A stretch of 42,173 nt of DNA, from the IMG/VR virus record IMGVR_UViG_3300032285_001050, positions 1 through 42,173 of that record. The stretch is one strand, 5' to 3'. The notes beneath the pieces are model-generated. The model was not told where the DNA came from. It saw nothing but the letters and a program-made list of their open reading frames with translations, and made no database searches. The stretch's first letter is position 1, and the number at the start of each line of letters is the position of its first letter. The position numbers were made by a program, and so were the translations under genes. Below, in pieces: positions 23,274 through 36,985 of the stretch. The stretch is from a virus.

Positions 23274-23507
23274 ATGGTAGTGACATTGACGCTTGAAGAA
23301 CAGTTGCAACTGGAAAGCCAATCCCGTAGCGCATTAAATCATTCAGATAGAGATGCGGTAGCCAAGCTTTGTGCATCACTAATAAAACAAAATGCTTATC
23401 AGTCGCAGTTAATAAAGCAAGCAGTCAATCATATTGCCGCCCTTGAAACTAATGAATTTCTAAGCAGGGCAAATCGTCCATGGTGGCGGCGTTTATTTGG
23501 TCATTAA
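23274..23507 (+). CDS. Small helical protein converging on the sigma gene
   Basis: The protein has about 77 residues: TLTLEEQLQLESQSRSALNH, then a helix with ALETNEFLSRANRPWW and basic end WRRLFGH. It is helical and amphipathic in the middle (KLCASLIKQNAYQSQLIKQA). I take the ATG with GGGG seven bases upstream; a TTG further upstream or a GTG 6 bases downstream are alternatives. Its stop overlaps the converging sigma gene by 15 bases, with no terminator between them. No family recognised. Confidence 0.55.
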   Translation: MVVTLTLEEQLQLESQSRSALNHSDRDAVAKLCASLIKQNAYQSQLIKQAVNHIAALETNEFLSRANRPWWRRLFGH

Positions 23508-24350
23508 AAGTTTTAACTTATTTTTGGCTACTTCTGTTTGCTGGCGAACACGCTCACGGCTAAGGCCACGATCTTGGGCAATTGCAGTCAATGTTTCTGC
23601 TTCTCCATTCAACCCATATCTCCTAGCTATTACTTCACGGTCTGAGTCGCTCAGGTAAAAAAAAGCTAGCTGTAACTGCTCTGAATATTCATCAGTCATC
23701 ATTTCATCAGGCACATTAGGATCTGCGATTAAATCAATAATGCAATTTCCATCATCTGTAAATGATTGATTTAAGCTTGCATGTGGCGCATTGTAATTAA
23801 CTAGCGTGGCCAGTTCTTCTGCAGTAATACCAATAATGGCAGCAAGTTCTCTTCTCGTTGGCGTTCTTCCGTTGACTTGGACAAACTCAGCCTCTGCTTT
23901 GGTCGCTTGATACAATTTATCAAGCACACGCTGCGGAATCTTTACCAAACGTTCATTGTTGTATATGGCGCGGGATATTGACTGCCTAATCCACCAGTAA
24001 GAATAGGTGGAAAACTTATATCCACGGGATGGATCAAATAATTCAGCCGCCCGTTGCAAGCCAAATGCTCCCTCTTGAATTAAATCAATGAGCTCCATAT
24101 TATTAGACTTTAAGCAATTAGAATACTTTTTGGCGGCATGTACCACTAAGCGCAGATTTGACTTAACAATTGTGTCACGGGCGCGGATGCCAATTTTAAT
24201 TTGCCGCAGCTCTTGCTTTGTGCGCTCTCCCGGCGCATTTCGAAGCTCCATGTACCGTGCCACCTGGCGGCCTAGTTGAATCTCTTGCTCTGCCGTTAGC
24301 AATGGGAATTTAACAATGGCAGCTAAATAATCTGACAGTGGATCAGTCAT
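23493..24350 (-). CDS. Phage-encoded sigma-70 family factor (cyanobacterial group 2-like)
   Basis: This 285-residue protein has sigma regions in order: region 1.2 (DPLSDYLAAIVKFPLLTAEQE), region 2 (RLVVHAAKKYSN, then LIDLIQEGAFGLQRAAELFD), region 2.4 (YKFSTYSYWWIRQSISRAI), region 3 (RVLDKLYQATKAEAEF) and region 4.2 (ETLTAIAQDRGLSRERVRQQ). It would replace the host sigma subunit and steer RNA polymerase. Conserved 2.4 and 4.2 helices predict promoters near the TATAAT/TTGACA type. It is the last gene of the leftward operon and its start overlaps the upstream stop by ATGA, so it is made once the whole operon has been read. Late structural genes are the obvious targets (inference). A start 15 residues upstream is possible but unneeded. 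Confidence 0.85.
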   Translation of the reverse strand: MTDPLSDYLAAIVKFPLLTAEQEIQLGRQVARYMELRNAPGERTKQELRQIKIGIRARDTIVKSNLRLVVHAAKKYSNCLKSNNMELIDLIQEGAFGLQRAAELFDPSRGYKFSTYSYWWIRQSISRAIYNNERLVKIPQRVLDKLYQATKAEAEFVQVNGRTPTRRELAAIIGITAEELATLVNYNAPHASLNQSFTDDGNCIIDLIADPNVPDEMMTDEYSEQLQLAFFYLSDSDREVIARRYGLNGEAETLTAIAQDRGLSRERVRQQTEVAKNKLKLLMTK

Positions 24351-24685
24351 TGCGCCTCCAGTTCGTCGGGAATGGGTTGATACTGCGGCAGCCACTGACC
24401 GTGCTTGTCGGTGAAGCCAGCCTCATGCAAGAATTGCTTAGCGGCGGTGGCATCACCGGCTAAGGCGCATTCCATCAGGGTTGGAGCCTCTAGCGCGTCG
24501 GCTAGGTCTTCAAGGGTGCGGGTTGGAACGGCATAGAACGATTCCATGTCGCCGTACTGGGAATCGGTGTCGGCTAGGTGGCGCAGCACTGTCGCGATGC
24601 CATGACGGACGCTAAAGCCCCCGTAGAAACTGGCAGCTTGCTCAAACTCGTCAACTAGGCGCTGGGCGCGGGAGTCGCTAGTCAT
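24347..24685 (-). CDS. Accessory protein with acidic helices, unknown function
   Basis: This 112-residue protein (MTSDSRAQRLVDEFEQAASF...) has a helical N-terminal part, a segment PTRTLEDLADALEAPTLM and a C-terminus with HEAGFTDKHGQWLPQY. It overlaps both neighbours by four bases (ATGA), in the operon just before the sigma gene. No family recognised. The composition resembles the other small proteins of this operon, which probably act against or alongside host processes. Confidence 0.65.
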   Translation of the reverse strand: MTSDSRAQRLVDEFEQAASFYGGFSVRHGIATVLRHLADTDSQYGDMESFYAVPTRTLEDLADALEAPTLMECALAGDATAAKQFLHEAGFTDKHGQWLPQYQPIPDELEAQ

Positions 24686-31502: not shown

Positions 31503-31679
31503 ATGCCTTTAGCTCAACCGATTCCACTGCGCCTTACGCCAAACCAACTGGAATGGCTGGATTCTTGGCGTGGCGATGCCCTTTCTCGCTCTGCCGCTAT
31601 CCGGCTTTTGTTAGAGCAGTCCATTTGTTTCCACCGCGACGGCATCCTGCTTTCCACTGAATTATTGGTGGTCAAGTGA
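31503..31679 (+). CDS. Ribbon-helix-helix DNA-binding protein, probable regulator of the divergent promoters
   Basis: This 58-residue protein has an Arc/CopG-like core: PIPLRLTPNQLEWLDSW (strand and first helix) and SRSAAIRLLLEQSI (second helix). Proteins of this type bind DNA as dimers at inverted repeats. It is encoded immediately right of an inverted repeat covering both early promoters, so it is the natural candidate for their regulator (inference). Start is ATG with no clear Shine-Dalgarno. Its stop overlaps the primase GTG start. Confidence 0.75.
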   Translation: MPLAQPIPLRLTPNQLEWLDSWRGDALSRSAAIRLLLEQSICFHRDGILLSTELLVVK

Positions 31680-34054
31680 AAGAAATTGATTTCACGGAAG
31701 CGCGGCGCTTTATTGCGCTGCTTGGCAAACCAGCGGGCACCATCAGGTTGCGTGCATTCCTTCACCGCGACCATGCCGATAAGCCAAATGACAAAGGCCG
31801 TAAAGGTGGCGCTCGCAAGCCACTTATCAGGCAGTGGCAAGAAGAGGGTCGCGGCGTTTATGTAGTCATCAATGATGGCGGTGACACCAATGCTGAAATC
31901 ACTGCTTGCCGCGCATTTTTTGCCGAATGGGACGATCGTCCCCGTGAATGGCAACTTACCGCATGGCAAGAACTAAAACTACCAGAGCCTACATTTCAAA
32001 TTAATACCGGCGGCAAGTCCATCCATAGTTATTGGGTACTAGCAGATCCCATCACACCTCAGCATTGGGAACTAGTTCAAGCGCGATTGCTTGATTATTG
32101 TGACGCCGATCGTAGCATCAAGAACTCATCCCGCGTAATGCGCTTACCTGGCAGCTATTACGCCAAAGCTGATGGCAGCCTTGGTGATATGTGCCGCATG
32201 GTATCTAGTGCTGGTCAACGTTATAGCGTTGCCGATATTGAAGCCGTACTGCCTTCTGAGGTGTATTATCAGCATGAAAAACCAGCCAGTCGGCACGCAG
32301 AATCCGTCCCGCGTGGCATCGATGAAATTCGCCAAGCCTTAGCCGTAATACCGCCGCGTACGCCAGGCACCGGCACCTATCATATCTATCGCAATATCTT
32401 TTGGGGTTTAATCCAGGCCTGCGGTGATGCAGGCCTGGCTATTGATCTAATGCAGGCGCATAGCCCGCAATGGCAGGGCCTACAGCAGATTGCAGGCTCT
32501 GGTGGTGATCGCATTAATGAAGGCACCTTTTGGTATTGGGCACGGCATTATGGTTGGCGGCCACCTTTGCCAACGCCACAAATAAGCCGTCAGCAGTTAG
32601 ATGCTGCGTCCGCTGATGGCGAAGTTGTCAACCTACAACTTTACGACAAGACCGGCACTGACTGGCTTGATTTAGCCGTAGTGCATGTCTTCAGGCATCC
32701 GCAGGAGCGTTGGATATGCGTTGATGGCATCCTTCACGTTTGGAATGGCACCCATTACCAAGCCAAAACAGATGATGAGTTGGCGCCACAATTGGCGTCA
32801 TTTCTTTCGCTGATCTATGTAGTAGATGGCAAATCAGGCGCCACCTGTTATCCATGGCGGCGCCCGCGCTATGTCGATGAGGCTTTGGCATGGATGCGTC
32901 GGCTGCTAAAACCAATAGCAGTTAATGCAACCAACGCCATTAATTGCCGCAATGGCGTGGTGTCTTGGTCATGGTCTGGCAAAAAACTTGACCTTACTTT
33001 TTCGCCGCATGACCCTGATTTTGCCTTCACATATGTCACTGCTTACAATTACGACCGTGAAGCCAATGGGCAGCATTTATGGCGGTTACTGGAAGCGGTA
33101 GAAGCTGGCGACCGTGACACCCTCCAACGCATACTTGGCAGTGGTCTTGATCTAGCCAAATATCGCGCTATCCAAGGCAGACCCCGTGCTGTGTTAATGA
33201 TTGGTGAAGGCAGTAACGGTAAAGACACCATCCGTACCGCCTTGCGCGATACTCTTGGCGCTCGCAATTTTACCTCATGCACACTGGCCGATTTTCGGCA
33301 ATATGACCAAGGACGCAAGTTTCCTATTGCACCATTGCGCGGCGCATCTGTTAACTGGTCAAGTGAAAATTCACAATTTGTCAGTATCGATAATCTTCAA
33401 TCATTAAAGGCTGCTATTAGCGGGGAAGAGTTGTCATACGAACTAAAAGGCGTACAAGAGTCTCAGTTTGTACCATCTGCATTATTTGTTTTTAACCTTA
33501 ATAAAGACCCATCACTAACTGGTGAACAAGCCGCCATTGAAACGCGGTTTCATGTATTCAAATTTCGTAAAACATTTATGGCAACACCTACAGAACCAAC
33601 CCACATTCAAGCCGATCCAAAACTCAAAGATGACCCTGAGTTTATTCAGCAACAGATATGCCCGGCGTTCCTTAATTGGTTGTTAGAAGGTATGGCCTTA
33701 AGTATTGCAGATGGGATTGATTACACAACTGGCACTCAAGCGATGCAGGATGTGCGTAGAGCTAGTTGTCATCTGTGGGACTTTTGTGATGCTACTGGAT
33801 TGACTTACCAAGATGGCGCGTCAGTGTCAACAAAGCGAGTGTGGGATGCGCTTCAAGCTTGGTATCGAGAGGAAGGCTATATCGACCGCTCAGGTAGGTG
33901 GTTGATGGACCCACCAAATGATCGCACCGTCAAGGCACCCAGGCTGCTGGTGGCTGCATTGCGCCAAATCTTTCCGAAAGTTGCGTCCGAACGGCAGCCC
34001 AGTAAGACCCGTGAGCGTCTCATTAAGGGTCTCAGGATGGACACATGGGCTTGA
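31676..34054 (+). CDS. Primase-helicase (RepB-like AEP primase plus D5/SF3 helicase)
   Basis: This 792-residue protein has an archaeo-eukaryotic-type primase domain in the N-terminal third: AFFAEWDDRP (acidic pair, about residue 84), GGKSIHSYWVL (the S-x-H motif, about 115) and DADRSIKNSSRVMRLPGS (about 142-160). The C-terminal half is a D5/SF3 helicase: MIGEGSNGKDTIRT (Walker A, about 508), VNWSSEN and FVPSALFVFNLNKDPS, with a D5_N-like linker before. It would start replication and unwind DNA, probably at the iterons that lie at and beyond its 3' end. One iteron copy lies in its last codons. It starts with GTG overlapping the RHH stop (GTGA). Confidence 0.88.
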   Translation: MKEIDFTEARRFIALLGKPAGTIRLRAFLHRDHADKPNDKGRKGGARKPLIRQWQEEGRGVYVVINDGGDTNAEITACRAFFAEWDDRPREWQLTAWQELKLPEPTFQINTGGKSIHSYWVLADPITPQHWELVQARLLDYCDADRSIKNSSRVMRLPGSYYAKADGSLGDMCRMVSSAGQRYSVADIEAVLPSEVYYQHEKPASRHAESVPRGIDEIRQALAVIPPRTPGTGTYHIYRNIFWGLIQACGDAGLAIDLMQAHSPQWQGLQQIAGSGGDRINEGTFWYWARHYGWRPPLPTPQISRQQLDAASADGEVVNLQLYDKTGTDWLDLAVVHVFRHPQERWICVDGILHVWNGTHYQAKTDDELAPQLASFLSLIYVVDGKSGATCYPWRRPRYVDEALAWMRRLLKPIAVNATNAINCRNGVVSWSWSGKKLDLTFSPHDPDFAFTYVTAYNYDREANGQHLWRLLEAVEAGDRDTLQRILGSGLDLAKYRAIQGRPRAVLMIGEGSNGKDTIRTALRDTLGARNFTSCTLADFRQYDQGRKFPIAPLRGASVNWSSENSQFVSIDNLQSLKAAISGEELSYELKGVQESQFVPSALFVFNLNKDPSLTGEQAAIETRFHVFKFRKTFMATPTEPTHIQADPKLKDDPEFIQQQICPAFLNWLLEGMALSIADGIDYTTGTQAMQDVRRASCHLWDFCDATGLTYQDGASVSTKRVWDALQAWYREEGYIDRSGRWLMDPPNDRTVKAPRLLVAALRQIFPKVASERQPSKTRERLIKGLRMDTWA

Positions 34055-34340
34055 TTACGGACGCAAGTTGCGTCCGATCGGACGCTAGCCGGACGCAAGT
34101 TACGGACGCAAGATCCCTGTTCCTATCTACCTTTTCACCTCTTCGGACGCAAATAGGGGTAAGTCAAATCAGGTATTTACAAAGAGGCGGCAATGTAGCG
34201 GGGTGAACAAAATACACATATAGGGGGGGGGAATAGGAAAATGCCGTTTTTACGTCCATCGTTGGTATGACTAGCTTTTTTGCGTCCGACTTGCGTCCGT
34301 TTGCGTCCGAACCCAGTAATGACGTGGAGTTTGGCGTCCG
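33981..34340. repeat. Iteron array CGGACGCAA, candidate replication origin
   Basis: The 9-mer CGGACGCAA or its complement TTGCGTCCG occurs about twelve times, counting near-copies. Plus-oriented: 34058, 34079 (7 of 9), 34090, 34103, 34144. Minus-oriented: 33981, 34068, a degenerate copy near 34250, 34280, 34291, 34301 and 34332 (8 of 9). Neighbouring copies start 10, 11, 11, 13 bases apart on the left and 11, 10 on the right, close to one DNA turn. 34058-34076 is a perfect palindrome with a one-base centre. Between the arms, 34153-34279 has no gene and holds an AT-rich tract and nine G at 34223-34231. The 317-base gene gap 34055-34371 is filled by this. Confidence 0.75.
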
Positions 34341-34371: not shown

Positions 34372-34665
34372 ATGCCTGAAATTAAGTTTCATGTTTCTGA
34401 TGCTGAACTGTCAGAATTGAATGCCGCTGCCGCTGCCGCTGGAACCAGCCGTGCAGCATTTATTCGTGATCGTGCCCTTGCAGGAATGACCACGATGGAC
34501 TACAATGCGCTGGTGGCTGGGGCCGTGCGTCAAATGCATGGCGACATCCCACGCGGCAAAATTGAACACCTCGTTGCATATGTCATCAATCAAACAGCAA
34601 TCAGTAGTCGAAAAGCTCCGTGCGCTATTGACCGAAGCGCTTGCAGTCGCCGCTGCAATCCGTGA
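34372..34665 (+). CDS. Ribbon-helix-helix (MobC/CopG-like) DNA-binding protein
   Basis: This 97-residue protein begins with an RHH core: EIKFHVSDAELSELNAAAAA, then AGTSRAAFIRDRALAGM, typical of relaxosome accessory and CopG-like proteins. The following part (MTTMDYNALVAGAVRQ...) is helical. The last 25 residues may be overlap reading. A start 35 codons upstream lies in the iteron array and has no RHH resemblance, so I chose the ATG before PEIKFHV. It is encoded directly right of the array and may bind the iterons or its own promoter. Overlaps the next gene by 86 bases. Confidence 0.65.
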   Translation: MPEIKFHVSDAELSELNAAAAAAGTSRAAFIRDRALAGMTTMDYNALVAGAVRQMHGDIPRGKIEHLVAYVINQTAISSRKAPCAIDRSACSRRCNP

Positions 34666-34807
34666 CAACGCCCAAGACGATCAGCAGCCGCTGCCTGCTG
34701 ACATAGCTGAATCGCTCACATCCATCGCATCCACAATCAATGAAGCTTGTAACGTCCCAGATCGAATTGCACAATGCATTGCGTCTGGTGGCGCGTGCAG
34801 TCGGTAA
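34580..34807 (+). CDS. Small helical protein overlapping its neighbours
   Basis: This 75-residue frame (MSSIKQQSVVEKLRALLTEA..., ending SGGACSR) is helical with an acidic middle (AQDDQQPLPADIAESL). It lies within the end of the RHH gene and over the start of the clamp gene (68 bases). Protein-like composition supports it; large overlaps on both sides weaken it. Function unknown. Confidence 0.45.
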   Translation: MSSIKQQSVVEKLRALLTEALAVAAAIRDNAQDDQQPLPADIAESLTSIASTINEACNVPDRIAQCIASGGACSR

Positions 34808-35786
34808 CGGTCGCACTCATGCCATCACCGCTGGCGTCTTGCTACATGCTGCTGATGGCATATTGACCGTCACCGGCTACGACATGGAGCTAGGCATCAC
34901 AACCGCCATCAGCGCCTGCGTAGAGGCCCATGGCGCCACCGTCGTACCCCATCGGCTGCTGTCGGACATCATTGGCCGCTTAGACGCCTCTGAGGCCGTC
35001 TCGCTGGCCATCAGCGGCAATCGGCTGGCATTGGTATCGCTCAGCGGCTCCTACAGCCTCTCAGTGGCCTCTGCGGATGATTTCCCGGCTTTACCCGTGG
35101 TGGATGCTGCTAATGGCATTGCCATCGACCTCGTTGGCCCCTTGGCCGCCGTCATGCCAGCAGCCAGCACCGACGTCAGCAAGCAATTGCTGCAGGGCAT
35201 TCACCTGGCCACTGGTCGCGTAGAAGCCACCGATGGCCATCGCCTAGCTATCTGCGCCATTGACTCAGACGCCGAGTTAGACGTGGTGCTACCTGTTCGC
35301 TGCCTGCAGCAAGTCCGGCAACCGGCAACCATCGCCATCGACGGTGGTCAGGTGGCCATCGCCCTAGCCGATGGCACGCAAATCACCAGCCGTACCCTAG
35401 ACGGCACCTATCCCAATGTCCGGCAGTTGGTGCCTACAGAATTTGCACATGCTCTAACCGTTGATCGTCTGCAACTACTGCACGCCTTAGAGCGTGTGGC
35501 CTTAATTGCCGTCAATCATAACTCAATTGTTAAATTATCAACCGCAACTAAAATCCTTGAAATCACAGCCGAAGCCGATGCCAACAGCGGCGCCGAATCC
35601 CTTGTAACCACTGGCACCTTACCCGATCTTGCCATCAACGTTCATTACCTAATCGATGGCTTAAAAACCATGGGCGCTAAGTCGGTTACCCTATCCGCCA
35701 ACACCGCAACCGCACCCGTCACCTTGACGCCTGACAGCATAAGTGGCCATACTTACCTCATAATGCCTGTCCAAGTCAGAAAATGA
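34740..35786 (+). CDS. dnaN: DNA polymerase III beta sliding clamp
   Basis: This 348-residue protein is a full-length beta clamp: MKLVTSQIELHNALRLVARA at the start, ATDGHRLAI at about 163-171 (the conserved TDGHRLA), DGTYPNVRQLVP at the start of domain 3, and the C-terminal IMPVQVRK as in VMPMRL of bacterial clamps. It should form the ring that holds polymerase on DNA. No phage DNA polymerase or clamp loader is visible in the window, so it would have to work with host Pol III. It sits between the origin region and the methyltransferase gene. Confidence 0.9.
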   Translation: MKLVTSQIELHNALRLVARAVGNGRTHAITAGVLLHAADGILTVTGYDMELGITTAISACVEAHGATVVPHRLLSDIIGRLDASEAVSLAISGNRLALVSLSGSYSLSVASADDFPALPVVDAANGIAIDLVGPLAAVMPAASTDVSKQLLQGIHLATGRVEATDGHRLAICAIDSDAELDVVLPVRCLQQVRQPATIAIDGGQVAIALADGTQITSRTLDGTYPNVRQLVPTEFAHALTVDRLQLLHALERVALIAVNHNSIVKLSTATKILEITAEADANSGAESLVTTGTLPDLAINVHYLIDGLKTMGAKSVTLSANTATAPVTLTPDSISGHTYLIMPVQVRK

Positions 35787-36985
35787 CGTCCATCAAGGAT
35801 CTCAAGTCTGATCATAAAAATGCCCGCAAGCGTACAGATCGCTCAGCCAACTTGATTGCTGAATCGCTGCAGCGTTACGGTGCTGCACGCAGCATTGTTA
35901 TTGATGAAGACAACCGGATCCTTGCTGGTAATGGCACCATCGAAGGTGCCAAAGCGGCAGGCATCAAGAATGTCCGCGTCATTGAAACCGATGGCACCGA
36001 AATCATTGCCGTCAAGCGCACCGGCTTAACTGAAGATGAGAAGATCGGTCTTGCCCTTGCCGATAACCGCACCAGCGACTTGTCTGATTGGGACAAGGAC
36101 ATGCTGCAGCGGCTTAGTGAAGAGCATGATATTGCTCCATGGTTTAATGCCGATGACCTAGCCGAGATCCTCGGCACTGTTGAGCAGTTGCCCGCTGAAG
36201 GCCTGACCGATGCCGATGATGTACCCGAGGCGCCAGAGGAGCCGGTTACGAAGCCGGGGGATCTTTGGGTGCTGGGTGATCACCGCTTGCTTTGCGGTGA
36301 CTCGACTGACACTATTGCCCTTGAGCGGTTGATGGGTGGCGTCAACGCCGACCTTTGGCTTACCGACCCTCCTTATAACGTCAATTACGAAGGTGGCACT
36401 GGATTAAAAATTCAAAACGACAATATGAAAGATGCCGAGTTTCGGCAGTTTTTGAAAGATGTTTATATTGCTGCGAATTGCTTTCTTCGCCCTGGTGCTG
36501 CTTTTTATGTTTGGCACGCCGGCTCAGAAGGCTACAACTTTTGCGGTGCCGCCTTTGACACTGGCTGGAAAGTTAGGCAATGCTTGATTTGGATTAAATC
36601 CTCGCTTGTAATGGGCCGCCAAGATTATCAATGGAAACATGAGCCTTGCCTTTACGGTTGGACCGAAGGTGCCGCCCACACCTGGAACTCAGATCGCAAG
36701 CAAACCACCGTTCTTGAGTTTGACAAGCCAAGCCGCAACAAAGAACATACAACCATGAAACCCGTTGACCTTTTCCAATACCAAATGGCCAACAGCACAA
36801 AGCCAGGCAATATTGTGCTCGACTCTTTTGGCGGCTCCGGCACCACCATGATTGCTGCTGAGCGCATCAACAGGAAGGCCCGGTTAATGGAACTAAACCC
36901 ACGCTACTGCGACGTGATCATCAAGCGCTGGGAAGATTTCACTGGCAAGAAGGCTATCCTTGAAGAGGCACCGGAGGCGTTCTGA
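35783..36985 (+). CDS. ParB-like domain fused to a beta-class DNA methyltransferase
   Basis: This 400-residue protein has an N-terminal ParB-like part (about 1-115: RILAGNGTIEGAKAAGI), then the methyltransferase: WVLGDHRLLCGDS, LTDPPYNVNYEG (DPPY at 195-198) and the AdoMet motif DSFGGSGTTMIAAE (about 347). The DPPY motif before FxGxG marks the beta class, which modifies adenine N6 or cytosine N4. No restriction partner is visible, so an orphan methylase that protects phage DNA or marks origin/packaging sites is likely. The start overlaps the clamp stop (ATGA) and the stop overlaps the terminase small subunit start (TGATG). Confidence 0.88.
   Translation: MTSIKDLKSDHKNARKRTDRSANLIAESLQRYGAARSIVIDEDNRILAGNGTIEGAKAAGIKNVRVIETDGTEIIAVKRTGLTEDEKIGLALADNRTSDLSDWDKDMLQRLSEEHDIAPWFNADDLAEILGTVEQLPAEGLTDADDVPEAPEEPVTKPGDLWVLGDHRLLCGDSTDTIALERLMGGVNADLWLTDPPYNVNYEGGTGLKIQNDNMKDAEFRQFLKDVYIAANCFLRPGAAFYVWHAGSEGYNFCGAAFDTGWKVRQCLIWIKSSLVMGRQDYQWKHEPCLYGWTEGAAHTWNSDRKQTTVLEFDKPSRNKEHTTMKPVDLFQYQMANSTKPGNIVLDSFGGSGTTMIAAERINRKARLMELNPRYCDVIIKRWEDFTGKKAILEEAPEAF

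Follow-up and report, generated by a model that had tools for sequence, protein, structure and literature searches.

The window analysed here is a 42,173-bp IMG/VR virus record of an uncultured phage. It contains an array of short repeats at the 3′ end of a gene for an AEP–D5 primase-helicase, surrounded further by genes for an RHH protein, a β-type sliding clamp, a ParB-like/methyltransferase protein, terminase, portal, and head proteins. All three neighbours named in the original prediction (primase-helicase, RHH protein, and sliding clamp) were found, and D5_N and DUF5906 domains were recognized in the primase-helicase. Elsewhere, the window encodes RecT, exonuclease VIII, SSB, a helicase, a resolvase, tail and head proteins, an endolysin, and an approximately 300-aa sigma factor of RNA polymerase (23493–24395). 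The ParB-like N-terminal part and the N6/N4 DNA methyltransferase C-terminal part belong to a single gene (35783–36985). The identity of a PICI, i.e., of a satellite, was rejected since virion genes of its own are present in the window (major head, scaffold, portal, terminase, and tail, along with the endolysin). The window genes searched included no DNA polymerase, which, given the encoded β-type clamp, suggests that the phage uses the host polymerase with its own clamp. The terminase shares 70–78% identity with those of siphoviruses of marine Synechococcus and Prochlorococcus, which makes cyanobacteria the likely hosts; a scan of genome contigs for the host or a prophage revealed no relative.

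The array is built of a 9-bp iteron, CGGACGCAA, represented by nine exact copies between positions 33981 and 34309 and by none elsewhere in the whole 42,173-bp record. Together with three degenerate copies (one mismatch at 34079 and 34332, two mismatches at 34250, TTACGTCCA, a slot occupied by a one-mismatch copy in relatives), the 360-bp stretch 33981–34340 holds 12 iterons, in agreement with the predicted number of about twelve. When the most frequent 9-mer was counted in 360-bp tiles, the array tile gave 9, against a maximum of 3 in 683 other tiles of the window. As predicted, the left copies mostly point rightward and the right ones all leftward, with starts separated by 10, 11, 11, 13 and by 11, 10 bp. 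The pair described as a perfect palindrome proved to be a perfect inverted repeat with a 1-bp centre (34058–34076), and GCGTCCGATCGGACGC (34070–34085) is a true palindrome. The copies had also been said to flank a gene-free core; the core (about 34153–34249) is indeed gene-free, but the first copy (33981) sits within the primase gene, where it is exact in 68 of 68 class-A sequences while the neighbouring codons are variable. All features are listed in Table 1.

Table 1. Features of the array and its flanking genes in the window.
Feature	Position	Strand	Basis
Primase-helicase gene, 792 aa, proposed initiator	31676..34054	+	Pfam D5_N, DUF5906; PrimPol match; C-terminal fold
Iteron, exact, within primase gene (codes L/V-A-S)	33981..33989	-	In all 68 class-A sequences
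Iteron 1 of left arm, exact	34058..34066	+	Sequence
Iteron, exact, inverted partner of 34058	34068..34076	-	Sequence
Iteron CGGACGCTA, one mismatch	34079..34087	+	Sequence
Iteron, exact	34090..34098	+	Sequence
Iteron, exact	34103..34111	+	Sequence
Box, left slot, degenerate in window (CCCTGTTCCTATCTACC); CCCTTGCTATTACT in many relatives	34115..34131	+	Alignment
Iteron, exact, last of left arm	34144..34152	+	Sequence
Gene-free core, proposed melting/loading region	34153..34249	.	55.7% AT
Degenerate iteron TTACGTCCA, one mismatch in relatives	34250..34258	-	Comparison of relatives
Box TCGTTGGTATGACTAGC; inverted in this slot in other lineages	34259..34275	+	Motif matches
Iteron, exact, right arm	34280..34288	-	Sequence
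Iteron, exact, right arm	34291..34299	-	Sequence
Iteron, exact, right arm	34301..34309	-	Sequence
Box, right outer slot, degenerate in window; CCCAGTCATACCAACGG in some relatives	34312..34334	.	Alignment
Iteron TGGCGTCCG, one mismatch	34332..34340	-	Sequence
RHH (NikA-like) gene, neighbour; array independent of it	34372..34665	+	Pfam NikA-like, just below cut-off
DNA polymerase III β-type sliding clamp gene, neighbour	34740..35786	+	Gene annotation

An Rfam search gave no match. The cumulative GC skew does not turn at the array and thus provides no support for an origin. The strong predicted fold of the stretch (z −5.1) results mainly from inverted iterons pairing with each other, so that a large stem-loop of the pRN1 type in place of iterons was rejected. 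DnaA boxes (TTWTNCACA) are absent from the putative origin, both copies in the genome lying elsewhere, which argues against a DnaA-dependent iteron plasmid origin. An upstream extension of the RHH reading frame to 34267, which would make the right arm coding, was dismissed as well, since the lengths of the core and the arm vary freely among relatives.

Relatives were collected by a primase scan, which yielded 58 loci, and by an independent scan for three iterons, which yielded 90 stretches, mostly of the same family. A loss of the array or its phasing would have spoken against the original prediction, but neither occurs in the main clade: in 68 of 68 class-A sequences, the window included, the array lies 3′ of the primase-helicase gene, with location, orientation, and spacing unchanged. 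Within class A, the arms, the orientations, and the spacings are near-constant, and core lengths differ by about 18 bp. With these same arms, the left one comprises 403 forward and 69 reverse iterons and the right one 370 reverse and 5 forward; the polarity, left forward and right reverse, is seen across the family. Iteron spacings pooled over classes A–C fall at 10–13, 21–23, 29–32, and 40–44 bp, with few others, i.e., near whole helical turns; the periodicity at 10.5 bp reaches R = 0.68 with a phase of 0.09 bp, or R = 0.53 on distinct spacing values. Since close packing of 9-bp sites partly predicts the one-turn peak, it is the multi-turn spacings that carry the phasing argument. The two arms are not phased relative to each other.

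With 55.7% AT, the core of the window exceeds the genome as a whole (48.2%) only slightly. Between the arms, at +99 to +157 relative to the end of the primase gene, 22 of 34 relatives have their weakest 40-bp duplex within 2 kb. The window departs from this pattern: its stability minimum within 1 kb is found at −555, outside the core.

Beside primases 54–65% identical to that of the window, the layout is mostly kept, and all copies of the iteron are re-spelled together. Thus, CGAAGGCAA replaces CGGACGCAA in the same layout beside some of these primases, CGGAGGCAA serves as the iteron in L204 and L230, and three copies of CGGACCCAA are found in L208; the arrays of L209, L210, L226, L246, and L251 are degenerate. 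In 540-bp control windows, the top 9-mer is usually present once or twice. On the primase tree, class A forms one clade (99/99), and the iteron classes require 6 changes as compared with 16.4 when labels are shuffled; the iteron type thus follows the primase tree. Such a concerted change is as expected if a single protein reads every copy. A further case is provided by Synechococcus phage S-H1, where two-armed iterons again follow a primase gene, with RHH, clamp, and terminase genes next to them as in the window, and a box (see below) occupies the left slot. However, the upstream gene of S-H1 encodes a Zn-ribbon/TOPRIM primase, non-homologous to the window protein (without significant similarity), and the iteron is different, TCCKAACGG, with nine copies in the array (at most one mismatch) and one elsewhere in 15 kb. 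Primase and iteron are swapped amid the same neighbours, which implies that the iteron and its initiator have been exchanged as a pair.

The candidate initiator combines an AEP PrimPol domain, a D5_N/DUF5906 SF3-type helicase, and a C-terminal winged-helix-like domain. Its N-terminus matches the S-2L PrimPol (6zp9) both in sequence (E 8.6e-40) and in fold (TM 0.90). The helicase part is poorly predicted in the full-length model, and the SF3 match to the solved structure 7ola is marginal (E 0.0098); Pfam Pox_D5 has no match in the window protein. The predicted model of the C-terminal 113 residues (pLDDT 79, pTM 0.71) shows the helix-strand-helix-helix-strand-strand order of a winged helix. Its best matches among solved structures are RFX winged-helix domains, though weak (E 0.026–0.048), and the P4 origin-binding domain is absent from the matches listed. 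It has been reported that SaPI Rep and Cch2 recognize their iterons or origin by the C-terminal domain (PMC7581432). The iterons would be read by the adjacent primase-helicase, probably via its C-terminal winged-helix domain.

Among the iterons lies a second element, a box of about 17 bp, CCCTTGSTATKACTRGG, which occupies up to three slots in either orientation depending on the lineage. Counts of the box exceed expectation in origins of the AEP–D5 family (60 matches with at most 4 mismatches against 1.7 expected) and after unrelated initiators, i.e., in NrS-1-type prophages (24 against 0.37), Javan225-type satellites (5 against 0.09), and the TOPRIM phages L269, L453, and L354 (3 against 0.07), with related loci treated as independent and the significance therefore overstated. 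The L312, L269, and Javan225 families were chosen via one box-bearing member each, and their relatives constitute the more independent evidence. In NrS-1-type PrimPol phages and prophages (L413–L450), AGTAACCC-type iterons follow the PrimPol gene, and in two thirds of the loci, the box has a constant position, +212 to +221; the long variants L431, L437, L438, and L447 have neither these iterons nor the box. Many viral and bacterial copies are located elsewhere, so the box was rejected as an origin-only signal. Exact CCCTTGGTATGACTGGGTT occurs near the 3′ ends of groEL, guaA, or rpsD in 38 bacterial genomes (L373–L410; e.g., L391:4488, L378:3389, and L401:5133), in some cases near short integrase-arm-like repeats, and tandems of three or four boxes were observed in viral contigs (L278:9549–9662, L309:3200–3313, and L330:2066–2180), those of L309 being near terminase and tail genes. 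A hairpin was also rejected, as the flanks outside CCC/GGG show no better pairing than shuffled partners. No paper describing the box sequence was found in the open-access literature, and an earlier description in SaPI origin papers is possible. A second factor probably acts at the box. The box may even be a common, initiator-independent part of this class of origins, present beside iterons after unrelated primase-helicases, a proposal we put forward tentatively and with somewhat more doubt than confidence.

Origins of similar design are known. PICI origins are located immediately 3′ of the pri-rep initiator gene and consist of two iteron sets around an AT-rich region (PMC6092414). The window resembles PICIs and SaPIs in having two iteron sets around a putative melting region directly 3′ of such a gene, and the Javan225 group likewise has a D5-type initiator; the window differs in that its iterons are GC-rich, its initiator is a fused AEP–D5 protein, and it represents not a satellite but a tailed phage, equipped with terminase, portal, head, tail, and lysis genes. 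In the siphovirus Sfi21 of Streptococcus, a non-coding “origin of replication” has been deposited (NC_000872, 34487–34784) directly after a Pox_D5/DUF5906 gene, and its sequence bears inverted AGTAAC repeats around an AT-rich core. The plan is the same, but Sfi21 has separate primase and helicase genes, a much higher AT content in the core, an unrelated iteron, and a degenerate box. Of what PICI- and Sfi21-type origins have in common, the window shows the location immediately after the primase-helicase gene, a core flanked by two iteron sets, and a D5_N/DUF5906 initiator. P4 offers a parallel in its α protein, a D5-family primase-helicase that is self-sufficient, and in its short type 1 iterons, which occur in both orientations and are present at ori and at crr, the latter just 3′ of the α gene. 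A P4-type replicon was nevertheless rejected: P4 has a TOPRIM primase and two sites (ori and crr), whereas the window initiator is of the AEP type (S-2L PrimPol-like), and its exact iterons all lie in one array, within a single 330-bp stretch. ORF904 of pRN1 also unites an AEP primase, an SF3 helicase, and a winged helix in one protein and is followed by an essential non-coding stretch, but pRN1 relies on a stem-loop and lacks iterons (PMC4234260). S-2L, which has the nearest known primase domain, was discarded as an example, since after its PrimPol gene there are weak GGCAC repeats (8 against 1.3 expected) with no clear arms. The parallels with PICIs, Sfi21, and P4 place the window array in a known kind of origin, here in a phage and not in a satellite; the same plan in dozens of tailed-phage contigs and in the Sfi21 origin indicates that it is not a PICI hallmark. 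The view that such ordered iterons are typical of plasmids and much less so of siphoviruses is, thus, only half right, this class being known in both PICIs and Sfi21.

The array might instead be an operator at which the RHH protein or another phage regulator controls the RHH–clamp operon; the right arm is directly 5′ of the RHH gene (34372), and RHH proteins commonly recognize short repeats close to the genes that encode them. However, 17 of 35 loci have no RHH-like gene within 1.3 kb and most of these keep the array, which makes the RHH protein an unlikely reader of the iterons. Besides, half of the array lies at or within the 3′ end of the primase gene, and S-H1 combines a similar RHH protein with a different iteron and a different primase, so we regard an operator as quite improbable. 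The retention of the array where the RHH gene is missing speaks equally against a centromere-like partition site read by the RHH protein or the ParB-like methyltransferase. Though the RHH gene and the ParB-like/methyltransferase fusion gene downstream would fit partition, no ParA-type gene was found among the genes searched, and the iteron spelling tracks the primase; the chances of this reading seem slimmer still. Slightest of all is the chance that we are dealing with a packaging or recombination site in which the box is the important part, as its copies adjoining groEL, guaA, and rpsD 3′ ends in bacteria, sometimes near integrase-arm-like repeats, might suggest: the co-evolution of iterons and primases would be left unexplained, the terminase gene is 2.9 kb off, and no integrase was found among the genes searched.

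We, therefore, favour, with a probability of roughly 85%, the reading that the array serves a siphovirus-like phage as its replication origin, with 9-bp iterons bound by the phage’s own primase-helicase. The original prediction of a phage origin is well supported by the position, the phasing, the concerted iteron change, the weak duplex between the arms, and the shared plan of Sfi21. Position, orientation, phasing, the initiator-linked change of iterons, and the recurrent weak core are established by sequence comparison; iteron binding, melting, loading, and a bidirectional start are what we infer from them. According to the proposed mechanism, the primase-helicase would bind the iterons, probably with its C-terminal winged-helix domain, and bound initiators would line up along one face of the DNA in each arm. 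With the arms facing each other, a head-to-head pair of helicase assemblies would form around the weak core and could melt it, after which the fused AEP primase may prime both strands and hand them over to the host polymerase and the phage clamp.

PICIs and Sfi21 already have origins of this class; what is new here is their occurrence across a large family of phages that probably infect cyanobacteria, along with the concerted iteron switches and the box common to origins of unrelated initiators. The family offers a natural experiment, as four or more iteron spellings occur with initiators that can be aligned, which makes the winged helix–iteron code directly testable. If the box is indeed a common part of these origins, its reader would be conserved across phyla, e.g., a host replication or transcription factor, and PICI-like origins would make up a single broad class recognizable by a common DNA signal. 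Should it hold up, the box would provide a sequence handle for origins in uncultured phages and point to a shared factor.
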